From Clostridiales bacterium (GTDB taxonomy: Bacteria > Bacillota > Clostridia > Oscillospirales > Oscillospiraceae): DNA of 64,000 nt. Below are positions 10,668 through 17,639 of this stretch, piece after piece. The stretch covers positions 17,366 to 81,365 of the forward strand of contig JAAYBD010000004.1 of NCBI GenBank assembly GCA_012719035.1. Direction: 5' to 3'. The stretch's first letter is position 1, and each line of letters starts with the position of its first letter. The position numbers and the translations under genes were made by a program. The notes beneath the pieces were generated by a model, which searched no databases, was not told where the DNA came from, and saw only the letters and a list, made by a program, of their open reading frames with translations.

Positions 10668-10839
10668 AGTTTTACCGCCAAATCTTAATGTGTTGGTAGT
10701 TTTTTGTGTTTACCAGACGATGATTTGATTCCGATATGCGAATTACGTGCCCCGAACTAAAGTGGTTTGCAGGACAGCATAAGGGAATTATTTATACCTA
10801 ATTATGGTGCTCTGAACCGACTTTGTCAAGCTGTTTGCA

Positions 10840-10868
10840 TTGACAAACGCAATATGTAGTGATATGAT
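10840..10868 (+). promoter_or_regulatory. Sigma-A promoter TTGACA-17 bp-TATGAT upstream of the cobalamin riboswitch
   Basis: TTGACA 10840-10845, 17-nt spacer, TATGAT 10863-10868. Confidence 0.8.
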
Positions 10869-10885
10869 TTAGAAAATTTAATATT

Positions 10886-11075
10886 TGGAACAGGTACTGG
10901 AAGTGGGGTGAAATTCCCCCGCAAGGCCGTTGCCGTGATTCGTTTGATGCCGGAAGCATTGCCACTGATTTTTATTGGGAAGGCGTTTCCGGAAGGGGTA
11001 TTTAGCCCCGCGCGATAAGCCGGAATACTTGCCTGCTCCCACGCTATGGCGTTGTTGTTCCACTCTGCGGACCCC
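10886..11075 (+). promoter_or_regulatory. Cobalamin (B12) riboswitch
   Basis: GGAAGTGGGGTGAAATTCCCCCGCAAGGCCGTTGCCGTGAT and B12-box-like GATAAGCCGGAATACTTGCCTG, upstream of B12-type ABC transporter genes; exact ends approximate. Confidence 0.88.
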
Positions 11076-11136
11076 CGGAGTGCTACGAAAGTTTATACGA
11101 TTACACGATTTTTATCTCATGAAATATCGTGATGTC

Positions 11137-11174
11137 TGCCGTTCGCGTGGTTTTGCGGGCGGCATTTTCTTTTT
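11137..11174 (+). terminator. Intrinsic terminator, probable riboswitch expression platform
   Basis: TGCCGTTCGC-GTGGTTTT-GCGGGCGGCA followed by TTTTCTTTTT, between riboswitch and first CDS. Confidence 0.75.
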
Positions 11175-11235
11175 GTATGCGTGAACAAGCGATTTTGCTG
11201 TTTGGAAAGACTTGATCGTGAGTGGAGAAAATTCG

Positions 11236-12300
11236 ATGAAAGATATGGACGCGCTAAAAAAATATAAACAGTCCAGAAAAAAGTGCTTCCTCTTCGGACT
11301 TGCGCTTGCCGCCGCTATTTTTCTTCTGATAACGTATACAGTTGGCCTTGGAGCAATGGAGCTTACATACCCTGACGTTCTGAAAATCATATGGGGCAAG
11401 ATATCCGGAAATGAGGAAGTACTTTACGGTATAAAAGAGGGGGCGATTGCTGTTGTATGGAAGATTCGCCTGCCGCGTATTATTTGCGGTGCTTTTGTGG
11501 GCGCGGGCCTTGCAACTGCAGGCGTTATTTTTCAATCTATTCTGCAGAATCCTCTTGCCGACCCCTATACTCTCGGAATTTCGACCGGGGCGGCTTTCGG
11601 TGCCTCTCTCGCCATACTGCTTAATATGATGTTCGGGATTTTTCTTTCCGTACCTGTAACGGCACTTGCATTTTCGCTTCTTACGCTGATTGCGGTTACA
11701 GCGATTTCAATGCGGGGCGGCGGGCTTGTAAGTTCTAATCTTATAATTGCCGGAATCATCGTAAGCACGATTTTTTCAGCCGGTATAAGTTTTATGAAAA
11801 TGCTGGCAGGTGAAAGCGTAAACTCAATCGTGTACTGGATAATGGGCAGTCTTGGCTCCAAAACGTGGAGCGATGTGGCGCTTGTCGCTCCCGTAGTTCT
11901 TATCGGTCTTGCCGTTTCACAGTTTTTTACCTCTGACCTGAACGTGATGGCTTTGGGAGAAAGCGATGCGGAAGCGCTCGGAGTAAACACAAAACGTACG
12001 CGGTTTATGTATCTTGCCTTAGGCTCGTGCATAACGGCGGTGTGTGTCTCCGTCTGCGGGGTGATTGGCTTTATAGGGCTTGTTGTACCCCATCTTCTGC
12101 GCTTTTCTCTGACAAGCGATAACCGTATGCTCATGCCGCTTTCAGCGCTCTTTGGAGCATTCCTGCTGTGCGGAGCAGACAATGTGACTCGTCTTATTTC
12201 AAACGGGGAGATACCTGTGGGCGTACTTACGACACTTTTAGGCGGTCCCTTTTTCATATATATTTTTGTCCGCAGAAAGGGGAGTGTCCGTGCTGAATAG
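11236..12300 (+). CDS. FecCD/BtuC-type ABC transporter permease
   Basis: LPRIICGAFVGAGLATAGVIFQSILQNPLADPYTLGISTGAAFGA, GFIGLVVPHLLR; two candidate starts (11212 or 11236). Confidence 0.9.
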   Translation: MKDMDALKKYKQSRKKCFLFGLALAAAIFLLITYTVGLGAMELTYPDVLKIIWGKISGNEEVLYGIKEGAIAVVWKIRLPRIICGAFVGAGLATAGVIFQSILQNPLADPYTLGISTGAAFGASLAILLNMMFGIFLSVPVTALAFSLLTLIAVTAISMRGGGLVSSNLIIAGIIVSTIFSAGISFMKMLAGESVNSIVYWIMGSLGSKTWSDVALVAPVVLIGLAVSQFFTSDLNVMALGESDAEALGVNTKRTRFMYLALGSCITAVCVSVCGVIGFIGLVVPHLLRFSLTSDNRMLMPLSALFGAFLLCGADNVTRLISNGEIPVGVLTTLLGGPFFIYIFVRRKGSVRAE

Positions 12301-13066
12301 TCCTCTCTTGGAAGCGAAGAATGTAAGCTTCTCTTACGGCAAAGACAAGGTTTTGAGTGATGTTTCGCTTGTTGTGAACAGGGGCGAATACCTGAGCATA
12401 GTAGGGATGAACGGGAGCGGAAAAACAACACTTCTTTCCCTGCTTTCCGGACATTTGCGTCCCGATAAAGGCGCAGTTTTCCTCAACGGCAGAAATCTAA
12501 ATTCTATTTCTGTGAGAGAAAGGGCAAGGCAAATTGCACTTGTCAGCCAAAGCCGACAGATGAACTTTCCGTTTACCTGCCTTGAACTTGTGCTGATGGG
12601 GCTTCATCCTCACAGTGAAAGATTTGAGACCGTTTCGGATGAACAATTGGAAAAAGCGCGCGAAATAATGGAAAGTACAGATGTTTGGAGATTTGCCGAT
12701 AAACCGATTACAGAGATTTCAGGCGGAGAGAGACAGAGAGTTGTACTTTCGCGGGCGCTCATGCAGAACCCGAGTTTGCTGCTGCTTGACGAAGCGGTGA
12801 GTGAGCTTGATATTGCGGCAAAAATATCCATGATGAAGCTGCTGCTGCAGCAAGTACGTAAGACAGGAATGTCTGTTGTTTCAATACACCATGACCTTAC
12901 AACGGTTTTTAGATTTTCGGACAGGGTAGCTGCGCTGAAACTTGGAAGCCTTGCTGAAAACGGAACTCCGGAGAAGCTTATGACTAAGGAGTTTTTCAAG
13001 GATGTGTTTTCCGTAGACGCTGAAATTCTAAGCAATAAAGGTTTTATCGTCTGCGATAATATTTAA
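12284..13066 (+). CDS. ABC transporter ATP-binding protein, BtuD/FepC type
   Basis: GMNGSGKTTLLSLLSG Walker A, ISGGERQRVVLSRAL signature, LLLDEA Walker B; probable GTG start overlapping the permease gene. Confidence 0.9.
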   Translation: MSVLNSPLLEAKNVSFSYGKDKVLSDVSLVVNRGEYLSIVGMNGSGKTTLLSLLSGHLRPDKGAVFLNGRNLNSISVRERARQIALVSQSRQMNFPFTCLELVLMGLHPHSERFETVSDEQLEKAREIMESTDVWRFADKPITEISGGERQRVVLSRALMQNPSLLLLDEAVSELDIAAKISMMKLLLQQVRKTGMSVVSIHHDLTTVFRFSDRVAALKLGSLAENGTPEKLMTKEFFKDVFSVDAEILSNKGFIVCDNI

Positions 13067-13084
13067 TGATAGGAGAGAAGAAAA

Positions 13085-14023
13085 ATGAAAAATCCCCAGA
13101 AAATCCTTGCATTCATCCTTTTAGCATCGCTGTGTCTCGGTCTTTCCGCCTGCGGTAAAAAGCCCCCGGAACAGAATTCCGCACCTCCGGAGGAAAAAGA
13201 AAGCGAAGCGCAAAAACCAGCAGGAGACCCCGACAAAAAGGCAATACTTGTCGTCAGCTTCGGAACAAGCTATAACGAGACTCGCGCCGTAACAATTGAA
13301 GCTATTGAAGGTGCCGTAACAAAAGCTTTTCCGGATTACGAGGTTCGCAGGGCATTTACAAGCCAGATAATCATCGACAAGCTTGAAGAACGCGACGGAC
13401 TTGAAATCGACAACGTGAAGGAGGCTATGGAGCGCCTTATTGCAGACGGTGTAGGCACTTTGGTCGTCCAGCCAACGCACGTTATGAACGGCTTTGAGTA
13501 CGATGAGATGAAAGAAGCCATCGCCCCTTATGAAGACAGCTTTAAAAACATTTCATATGGTCTGCCCCTGCTTATTTCCGATGAGGATTATGCTGAAGTA
13601 GTTTCTATCCTTGCCGATGAAACGGCTGAATATAACACTGATGATACGGCAATCGTGTTCATGGGGCATGGAACAGAGCATGAAGCTAATAGCACATACG
13701 CAAAACTCCAGCAAAAGTTTGACGATGCCGGATATACGAACTATTTTATTGGCACCGTCGAGGCAGAACCGACACTTGAGGATGTTGTGGCGGCTGTCGA
13801 AAAAACTGGAGCTAAAAAAGTGGTGCTGCTGCCTTTGATGATTGTTGCGGGAGATCATGCTAATAATGACATGGCCGGGGACGAGGAAGGTTCTTGGAAA
13901 ACGGAATTCAAGGCAGCAGGCTACGAAGTAGAGCCTGTGCTCAAGGGACTCGGGCAGTATGAGGGAATACAGAAGATGTTTGTAGAGCACGTACAGGCTG
14001 CCGTTGACGCTCTGAAAGCATAA
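13085..14023 (+). CDS. cbiK: Sirohydrochlorin cobaltochelatase, CbiK family, with predicted lipoprotein signal peptide
   Basis: ILVVSFGTSYNETR, VVQPTHVMNG, FMGHGTEHEAN and LMIVAGDHANNDMAGDE (CbiK-type); N-terminal lipobox LSAC. Confidence 0.87.
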   Translation: MKNPQKILAFILLASLCLGLSACGKKPPEQNSAPPEEKESEAQKPAGDPDKKAILVVSFGTSYNETRAVTIEAIEGAVTKAFPDYEVRRAFTSQIIIDKLEERDGLEIDNVKEAMERLIADGVGTLVVQPTHVMNGFEYDEMKEAIAPYEDSFKNISYGLPLLISDEDYAEVVSILADETAEYNTDDTAIVFMGHGTEHEANSTYAKLQQKFDDAGYTNYFIGTVEAEPTLEDVVAAVEKTGAKKVVLLPLMIVAGDHANNDMAGDEEGSWKTEFKAAGYEVEPVLKGLGQYEGIQKMFVEHVQAAVDALKA

Positions 14024-14028
14024 AAGCT

Positions 14029-15466
14029 ATGAAAAAAAAAATTTCTTTCGCTCATATTGTGTCTTGCCGCGCTGTTTTCGGTTTTTGCGGGATGCACCGC
14101 AAAAAATGATGAAACAGAAACAGAGGGCAAAGCTGCTATAAGCTTCGTCGATGACGATGGCTATCAGATAAACCTCGGCGCACCCGCCAAAAAGATAATA
14201 TCAATGTATTCAGCACATACGGAAAATCTGTATGCTCTCGGAGCGGGAGAGCAGGTGATAGGCGGTCATACTACCTGCATTTTTCCGGCGGAGGCAGCGC
14301 CAAAAGCGACCTATGACTATCAGGGGGACCCGGAATATGTGATTGCGGCTGAGCCTGATCTCGTTCTGATCCGACCCAGAATTTCGAGGGCTGCTCCGGA
14401 ATTTGTGGAGAGTTTGCGCAACGCAGGGATAACTGTTGTGTCTCTCTATCCAAATACCCTTGACGCTTTCCCGGACTATATCAATAAGCTTGCTGCGCTT
14501 GCCGGCAAGGAGGAAAAAGCCGAGGAGCTTTTGAAAGTGTTTGATGCTGGATTAAATGAGATATCGGACTTAACTTCAAAGGCGGAGGATAAACAGACCG
14601 TTTTCTTTGAATCTACAGAGGTCAATATCCGTACGGTCGCCGAAGGCTCTATGCCGGATATGGCTATCAAGTTTGCGGGCGGGAAGAATATAGCGCAGGG
14701 TGCACTGCCTATGACAGAGGGAAGCTCTATTGCCGAATTCGGAGCTGAAAGAGTGCTCGAAAACGGCGAAGGAATCGATGTATACGTTTCACAGCGGGGG
14801 GCTATGAATGCCGGAGGAAACTTGCAGTCTATCAGCGAGCGCCCCGGATTTGATACGGTGTCAGCAGTAAAAAACGGCAGGGTATACGTGATAAACGAAA
14901 AGCTTATCTCATCTCCCACTTTCCGGTATGTAAAAGGGGTAAATGAGCTGGCAAGATTTATGTACCCTGAAATCATGGATGATGTTTCCGCATATATAAG
15001 TGATGAGCCGGCAACCAAAAGGGACTTTGCGAACTTAATCACAAGATGTCTGCACATACCAGTTTATGTTCCCTCATCATCAAAATACTACCTTGAGAAC
15101 AGAGATACTCATACCTATGGAATGTTTGAGGATATTCACTGGTATGATCACGACTTCGACTATATTGAGACAGCCGTTTACAGCGGTTACGTTTCATGGC
15201 GGAAAGGGGAGGACGGGAAGGAGTATTTTGACCCCGACAGCGGTGTCACGCGTGAGGGACTTGCTAAGACTGTTTTTATAGCGGGAGACTTTTCTGCTAA
15301 GGAAGCAAATACCGCAATTTCCGACCTCGGCAAATGCGGGAACAAGCGCATAGTTCAAATTCTGGTGGACAACGGCGTGTTTGAGCTGGATGAAAACGGC
15401 AGCTTTTTACCCGATAAACAAGTGACACACAATGAAATCATACAGGCACTTCGATTTGTAAAATAG
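14029..15466 (+). CDS. ABC transporter substrate-binding lipoprotein (BtuF-like) with C-terminal SLH-like repeats; apparent frameshift in the A10 tract directly after the ATG
   Basis: ORF open from 14033 (no ATG in frame near the start; track uses TTG 14057); DDGYQINLGAPAKKIISMYSAHTENLYALG, AEPDLVLIRP, ISSPTFRYVKGVNEL; C-terminal FEDI...YIETAVYSGYV...FDPDSGVTREGLAKTV. Confidence 0.8.
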
Positions 15467-16901: not shown

Positions 16902-17639
16902 TCATCTCGCCTGACGTATCATCTCGCGGCGCAGGCGGACGATTATACGTTTTTCCAAGCGGCTTATATATGACTGGGAAATGCCCATTATATCCGCAAC
17001 TTCCTTTTGCGTGTACTCCGTGGAACCGCAAAGCCCGAAGCGCATTATAATTATCATCCGTTCACGCTCGTCAAGACCGTCTACGGCGTTCATGAGCATT
17101 TTCTTATCTGCGTCCTCTTCCATCGGGCGGGAAACCTCATCACCGTCAGTACCCAGAACATCGGAGAGCAGCAGTTCGTTTCCGTCCCAATCAGTATTAA
17201 GCGGCTCGTCCAGTGAAACTTCTGCTTTCTGAGAGCTTATTTTTCGTAGATACATCAAAATTTCATTTTCAACGCAGCGGGAAGCATAGGTAGCAAGTTT
17301 GATTTTTTTATCGGACTTGAAGGTACTTATTGCCTTGATAAGTCCAATTGTCCCTATAGAGATAAGGTCCTCCAGACCGACTCCCGTATTTTCAAACCTG
17401 CGTGCTATATAGACAACAAGGCGCAGATTGTGCTCGATGAGCGTTTGCTTTGCCAGTTCGTCCCCGTTCTCCAGAGCGTCTATTGCTTTCCGCTCCTCGG
17501 ACTTCGACAAGGGCGGAGGGAGAACATCGCTGCCCCCTATATAATGCACTCCCGGAGGAAGCGCAAGACCGAGCCGATTAAGTGCGTCAAGAAACGCTAT
17601 GTAGAGCTTTGCTGACAATCCAAATGACTTTTGGTTCAT
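16902..17639 (-). CDS. sigE: RNA polymerase sporulation sigma factor SigE
   Basis: [65 protein letters not shown]; directly downstream of spoIIGA. Confidence 0.93.

Follow-up and report, generated by a model that had tools for sequence, protein, structure and literature searches.

The genome of this gut-type Clostridiales bacterium carries the genes to build vitamin B12 from its first ring-shaped intermediate onward, but none of those tested for making that ring. Its only CbiK-family chelatase bears what looks like a lipoprotein export signal and is encoded next to a FecCD-type ABC importer under a cobalamin riboswitch. This suggests that the bacterium may scavenge the ring, probably as sirohydrochlorin, from its neighbours and start making B12 outside the cell.

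The window (the whole stretch of DNA that was analysed, 64,000 nucleotides) covers positions 17,366 to 81,365 of contig JAAYBD010000004.1 (assembly GCA_012719035.1). The original prediction, of a promoter, riboswitch and terminator leader preceding a permease, an ATPase, a CbiK homologue and a binding protein, was confirmed. The features of the locus are listed in Table 1. The riboswitch was the only Rfam hit in the window.

Table 1. Features of the uptake operon and the divergent corrin operon (positions in the window)
Position	Strand	Feature	Basis
10840..10868	+	sigma-70-like promoter (TTGACA-17-TATGAT, TG-extended) of the importer/chelatase operon	11 of 12 matches; 3 promoter-like sites in the region against 1.1 expected
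10801..10829	-	promoter-like site for the divergent cbi operon	consensus match only
10875..11050	+	cobalamin riboswitch aptamer	RF00174, 51.9 bits (gathering cut-off 31.5), E 4.9e-10
11137..11174	+	intrinsic terminator, the likely expression platform	11-bp stem (11137-11164) plus T tail
11236..12300	+	FecCD-family ABC permease (BtuC-like)	PF01032, 290 bits
12290..13066	+	ABC transporter ATPase (BtuD/heme/Fe-siderophore type)	PF00005
13085..14023	+	CbiK-family chelatase with lipoprotein signal (LSA^C23) and linker; the only CbiK in the genome	PF06180, 305.4 bits (cut-off 26.2)
14029..15466	+	Peripla_BP_2 substrate-binding lipoprotein with C-terminal SLH domain; as assembled, frameshifted at an A10 run (14032-14041), open frame from 14057	Peripla_BP_2, 67 bits
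131..10667	-	corrin operon cbiL-cbiD-cbiF-cbiG-cbiH-cbiJ-cbiET-cbiA-cobC-cbiB-cobD, continuing left of the window with cbiP, a btuR/cobA-type adenosyltransferase and cbiC; no cbiK, cbiX or tetrapyrrole-synthesis gene seen in it	

Three details of the original prediction had to be corrected. The natural ATG of the binding-protein gene (14029) is out of frame with the rest of the gene because of the A10 run, which is the only homopolymer of 9 or more in the 64 kb, and the listed open reading frame starts at an internal TTG. The same protein ends in an S-layer homology domain, which had not been noted. Finally, the transporter genes can be named Btu only by resemblance, as all three proteins scored well below the equivalog cut-offs: the permease reached 273 bits against the 461 required by the best BtuC model, the ATPase 130 of 281 for BtuD and the binding protein 37 of 234 for BtuF. 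A function as a B12 importer is not shown. The similarity of the binding protein to other proteins could not tell heme, B12 or siderophore ligands apart.

The N-terminus of the CbiK protein has the features of a textbook lipoprotein signal (K2...K6, a hydrophobic core and L20-S21-A22-C23) and is followed by a low-confidence linker (residues 22-41) before the catalytic domain. The motifs GHGTEH and AGDHANND were confirmed. Residues E138, H195 and H258 align with the metal-binding E89, H145 and H207 of Salmonella enterica CbiK, and this Glu/His/His set was kept in 98 of 98 exported domains. The fold matches CbiK, FetB and CbiKP at 1.8 A (for Salmonella CbiK, PDB 1qgo, TM 0.94 by target and 40% identity). 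However, the protein scored 267 bits against the 400-bit cut-off of the NCBI equivalog for sirohydrochlorin cobaltochelatase (NF047852), and is not filed as that equivalog.

Searches of the genome (2.29 Mb, 100% complete) revealed no other CbiK and no separate CbiX. In addition, neither hemB nor hemC was found (hemA, hemL and hemD were not included in the search). The only TP-methylases present were CbiE/F/H/L and RsmI, so the uroporphyrinogen methyltransferase CobA is absent. In contrast, the cbiL-to-cbiC operon is open throughout, with cbiL, D, F, G, H, J, ET, A and C present. The corrin pathway of this genome therefore has no internal substrate. This strongest evidence was not part of the original prediction.

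To see whether this combination is found more widely, 119 relatives were compared. Of the 11 hemC-less genomes with cbiD, 11 lacked hemB and 10 lacked cobA. A sole exported CbiK was found in 9 of these 11, against 1 of 18 hemC-positive genomes (p 5e-5). In 50 further genomes with an exported CbiK, a second CbiK gene occurred in 14 of 26 hemC-positive but in only 1 of 24 hemC-negative genomes (p 1.3e-4). The first set had suggested that an exported CbiK marks hemC-less genomes, but this was rejected, as 26 of the 50 further genomes have hemC. Of those 26, 12 show no second CbiK gene. The statement that survives is that hemC-less genomes keep only the exported copy. After correction for CbiK phylogeny only 8 well-supported independent contrasts were left, of which mostly 4-5 agreed and 0-1 disagreed (p 0.06-0.125, up to 0.6).

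The gene set itself is widespread. The lipoprotein signal was seen in most of 80 homologous loci, the permease was adjacent to the exported CbiK in 67 of 80, and corrin genes were nearby in 34 of 80. A cobalamin riboswitch was located directly upstream in 28 of 36 exported-CbiK loci. A lipoprotein with two NEAT domains (heme-type; PF05031, up to 43.7 bits) was usually present, with a NEAT lipoprotein in 69 of 80 loci. No NEAT gene was found between the four genes of the window operon or in the G010 locus L066.

Based on these results, we consider it more likely than not that the locus is a B12-repressible tetrapyrrole salvage system. This supports one of the two readings in the original prediction, metal loading of an external tetrapyrrole before uptake, over a metal/heme-binding role. 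In this model the lipid-anchored CbiK outside the membrane inserts Co2+ into sirohydrochlorin (or a close relative such as precorrin-2) scavenged from neighbours. The binding protein, in most relatives preceded by a double-NEAT lipoprotein, then hands the cobalt-sirohydrochlorin to the FecCD/ABC importer, and CbiL, CbiH, CbiF and the rest build the corrin ring inside. When adenosylcobalamin is plentiful, the riboswitch shuts the uptake operon. The identity of the substrate, the insertion of cobalt outside the cell and the direction of transport are inferred without ligand or activity data, and free sirohydrochlorin in the gut is assumed. The frameshift in the binding-protein gene as assembled and the lack of the NEAT partner in this genome also count against the model.

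Heme-iron acquisition was weighed seriously as an alternative, but is considered unlikely. In this reading the lipoprotein CbiK works in reverse, as proposed for Porphyromonas gingivalis IhtB/FetB, removing iron from heme, and the importer takes up iron or heme. FetB is the closest solved exported homologue, the Iht system pairs a CbiK-like lipoprotein with an ABC importer and is read as a heme/iron system (PMC10913741), the associated NEAT domains resemble Isd hemophores, NEAT domains and FetB are known as heme binders, and the binding protein is distantly similar to iron and heme binders. However, the upstream signal in most of the loci examined is a cobalamin riboswitch and not an iron signal, corrin genes are adjacent in 34 of 80 loci, and the copy number of CbiK tracks hemC. 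Moreover, this reading would leave the intact cbi operon without a chelatase or substrate, and IhtB itself is reported as not Fur-regulated (PMC10913741).

It is equally unlikely that the importer is an ordinary BtuCDF for cobalamin/cobinamide, with the lipoprotein CbiK as a cobalt store or chaperone that happens to share its operon and the cbi operon as a relic or working on another salvaged precursor. Riboswitch-controlled btuCDF appears to be common, Desulfovibrio has cbiK-cbiL and btuCDF under one B12 element (PMC545781), and the best model for the permease is BtuC. Against this stand the intact cbi operon, the full metal site kept in the exported CbiK, the retention of this CbiK and the lack of the cytosolic one in hemC-less genomes, and the low scores of the importer mentioned above. 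Slightly less likely still is siroheme recycling, in which the surface chelatase exchanges iron for cobalt on siroheme or another metallated isobacteriochlorin released by lysed neighbours before the product is imported. The gene content fits this equally well, and siroheme is a plausible external source of the dimethylated ring, but there is no evidence for iron removal by CbiK enzymes in these lineages and no dedicated demetallation partner was seen.

The closest known relatives are P. gingivalis IhtABCDE with IhtB/FetB (PDB 9b86) and Desulfovibrio vulgaris periplasmic CbiKP (PDB 2xvx). In P. gingivalis, an exported CbiK-fold lipoprotein is encoded with a binding protein, permease and ATPase, in a bacterium that lacks precorrin-2 synthesis (Roper 2000, as cited in PMC6461909) but keeps later B12 genes. 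P. gingivalis is Gram-negative, and its system has a TonB receptor and is interpreted as heme/iron uptake; no receptor gene is present in the operon described here, nor is one expected in a Gram-positive cell. The present locus has a cobalamin riboswitch, an adjacent cbi operon and, in relatives, NEAT proteins. CbiKP is exported and has the same fold and metal residues, but is from another phylum and forms a separate long branch in the CbiK tree, although this long-branch placement is unsure. Salmonella CbiK is cytosolic and acts on internally made sirohydrochlorin. The Isd/NEAT hemophore relays of Gram-positive bacteria share a surface NEAT lipoprotein, a binding lipoprotein and a FecCD-type importer with most relatives of the locus, but differ in that B12-riboswitch control and a chelatase are found here.

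The tetrapyrrole (precorrin-2) precursor salvagers of Shelton et al. (PMC6461909) also lack the early hem/cobA steps and keep corrin synthesis. That work defined the phenotype, and since 2000 it has been unexplained how bacteria such as P. gingivalis, and later many gut bacteria, keep a B12 pathway while lacking the steps that make its first ring. In the literature searched, which did not include most subscription journals, we found no paper naming an uptake system for these bacteria, none evidently about sirohydrochlorin uptake and none joining NEAT domains with cobalamin riboswitches. The operon and its many relatives are a candidate mechanism. If right, this would reassign a group of proteins now annotated as cytosolic cobaltochelatase, BtuCDF or heme-uptake parts, and correct predictions of who can make B12 in the gut. 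More tentatively, it is possible that in many anaerobic gut Firmicutes and some spirochaetes vitamin B12 synthesis begins outside the cell, with a dedicated, B12-riboswitch-controlled surface machine (lipid- or S-layer-anchored cobaltochelatase, tandem-NEAT relay and ABC importer) that captures sirohydrochlorin made by other microbes, inserts cobalt at the surface and imports cobalt-sirohydrochlorin. This would make sirohydrochlorin a shared, cross-fed currency of gut communities.

The absence of a cobalt importer was also considered as a signature of external cobalt loading. A short cob-linked CbiM was missing from exported-CbiK genomes, but some genomes with cytosolic CbiK lacked it too, and no weight was given to this observation. 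The present genome contains a fused CbiM-type transporter gene elsewhere (Co or Ni not distinguished), so that cobalt shortage inside the cell is not implied.

Downstream of a promoter, a cobalamin riboswitch (RF00174, 51.9 bits) and an intrinsic terminator lie four genes, encoding a FecCD-type permease, an ABC ATPase, a CbiK-family lipoprotein and a Peripla_BP_2 protein ending in an SLH domain. The coordinates of these and other features are listed in the table below. The riboswitch was the only Rfam hit in the window, so the divergent cbi operon has none at the gathering threshold. That operon reads cbiL-D-F-G-H-J-ET-A-cobC-cbiB-cobD and continues outside the window with cbiP, an adenosyltransferase and cbiC. 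All these frames are open.

Features of the window and of related loci discussed in the text
Feature	Location	Position
Promoter	window	10840-10868
Cobalamin riboswitch	window	10875-11050
Intrinsic terminator	window	11137-11174
FecCD-type permease	window	11236-12300
ABC ATPase	window	12290-13066
CbiK-family lipoprotein	window	13085-14023
Peripla_BP_2 protein	window	to 15466
Start of the binding-protein gene (ATG + A10)	window	14029-14060
A10 tract	window	14032-14041
C-terminus of the binding protein (SLH domain)	window	15320-15466
Divergent cbi operon	window	10667 leftwards
Tandem-NEAT lipoprotein	locus L186	9031-9972
CbiK fused to SLH domains	locus L070	8468-10318
CbiK fused to SLH domains	locus L078	6321-8201
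Decayed CbiK	genome G123, contig C57	22877-23296

The SLH domain is an unusual way to hold an ABC binding protein in the wall. As assembled, the binding-protein gene is frameshifted at an A10 tract just after its ATG, which puts its lipoprotein signal out of frame. The tract is the only homopolymer of nine or more in the 64 kb of the window, and the homologue in genome G010 is intact. The frameshift may be an assembly error, phase variation or transcriptional slippage.

The chelatase matched PF06180 at 305 bits. The closest solved chains were those of S. enterica CbiK, P. gingivalis FetB and Desulfovibrio CbiKP, and an AlphaFold2 model (pLDDT 86) superposed on these at 1.8 A. Residues E138, H195 and H258 align with E89, H145 and H207 of Salmonella CbiK. 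The first 26 residues form a lipoprotein signal (LSA^C), followed by a linker of low model confidence. However, the NCBI equivalog cut-off for sirohydrochlorin cobaltochelatase was not reached (267 of 400 bits), and we therefore refer to it as a CbiK-family protein and not as that equivalog.

The genome from which the window derives (2.29 Mb, 49 contigs, 100% complete, 0.54% contamination) contains one CbiK, the one described here, and the only hit of the CbiX profile was the same gene. Porphobilinogen deaminase (hemC) and porphobilinogen synthase (hemB) are absent. The five tetrapyrrole-methylase hits are CbiE, CbiF, CbiH, CbiL and the rRNA enzyme RsmI, so uroporphyrinogen-III methyltransferase (CobA) is absent. 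Judging from these genes (hemA, hemL, hemD and SirC were not included in the searches), the organism can run the corrin pathway from cobalt-factor II onward but cannot make its substrate. From what is known of the pathway, the missing input must be at the level of precorrin-2/sirohydrochlorin or their metal forms.

To compare this with related genomes, 119 relatives, many of which are metagenome assemblies, were searched for CbiK, hemC, CbiD, CobA, CbiM and hemB, and the loci were inspected. Of the 29 genomes with CbiD, 11 lack hemC; all 11 lack hemB and 10 lack CobA. Nine of the 11 carry an exported CbiK as their only CbiK. Of the remaining two, which are both without CobA but have corrin operons, one (G094, locus L073) has a CbiK without signal and one (G090, locus L102) has none; these two genomes need another solution. 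Of the 18 hemC-positive genomes, 16 have a cytosolic CbiK, five have an exported one (four of these have both) and only one relies on the exported form alone (p 5e-5). In three genomes (G024, G049 and G061), CobA scored over its cut-off in the absence of a hemC or CbiD hit. In addition, a CbiK without export signal, next to a binding protein, a FecCD permease and an ATPase, was found in genome G104 (locus L075). It branches just outside the exported clade, in a genome without a hemC hit (76% complete), and is possibly an intermediate stage.

In a wider sample of 80 loci, most CbiK proteins have a lipobox or signal peptide, as judged by a heuristic of our own and not by SignalP. The permease lies within 6 kb in 67 of the 80 loci and corrin genes in 34 of the 80. 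Record titles include Oscillospiraceae, Lachnospiraceae, Christensenellaceae, Treponema and other spirochaetes. In the first 50 of these genomes hemC is present in 26 and absent in 24, showing that there is no strict link between an exported CbiK and the absence of hemC. However, a second CbiK gene exists in 14 of 26 hemC-positive genomes but in only 1 of 24 hemC-negative ones (p 1.3e-4). Contrasts that respect the CbiK tree are few: 8 pairs, mostly with 4-5 in agreement and 0-1 against (p 0.06-0.125). In genome G123 (locus L117), which also has an exported CbiK, a decayed CbiK with three stops lies about 4-5 kb from hemC, as if the cytosolic copy were being lost.

We scanned 36 exported-CbiK loci, including the window, with Rfam. 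In 28 of these a cobalamin riboswitch lies just upstream of the chelatase/importer operon on the same strand, and two more have one on the opposite strand. Locus L117 has two riboswitches back to back, one for the importer operon and one facing the cbi operon. This ties the system to B12 rather than iron.

In 69 of the 80 loci a protein with NEAT-like domains, usually two in tandem and usually a lipoprotein, lies beside CbiK (for example in locus L186). NEAT proteins are otherwise known as heme hemophores. The best member passes the Pfam NEAT cut-off (43.7 against 32.8 bits), 17 of 19 match at E below 0.01, and a structural model gave NEAT hemophore domains as its best folds. The window's locus and that of G010 lack the NEAT gene and use the order permease-ATPase-CbiK-binding protein.

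Since the only chelatase is outside and no internal ring is made, the simplest scheme is capture of sirohydrochlorin, cobalt insertion at the surface, import of cobalt-sirohydrochlorin, and corrin synthesis inside, with shut-off by the riboswitch. All 98 exported domains keep the metal site, which argues for retained catalysis rather than passive binding. We consider this scheme more likely than not, although substrate, metal, activity and direction of transport are inferred.

Pieces of this arrangement are known. P. gingivalis lacks precorrin-2 synthesis but has a functional later corrin pathway (Roper 2000, cited in PMC6461909). Its Iht system pairs a CbiK-like lipoprotein with an ABC importer and is interpreted as a heme/iron system, in which IhtB is not Fur-regulated (PMC10913741). 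Tetrapyrrole precursor salvagers were defined by Shelton et al. (PMC6461909), and a review gives precorrin-2 salvagers as 0.6% of genomes (PMC8123684). In Desulfovibrio, Rodionov et al. noted a B12 element over cbiK-cbiL and btuCDF (PMC545781). In our literature searches, which did not cover most subscription journals, we did not find the salvage role, the NEAT partner or the correlation with the hem genes described.

Finally, CbiK also occurs in other domain arrangements. It was found fused to three SLH domains (loci L070 and L078), with a C-terminal domain similar in sequence to the first NEAT-like domain (loci L070, L077 and L078), and in tandem with itself, repeated two to three times in one protein (loci L076 and L135).
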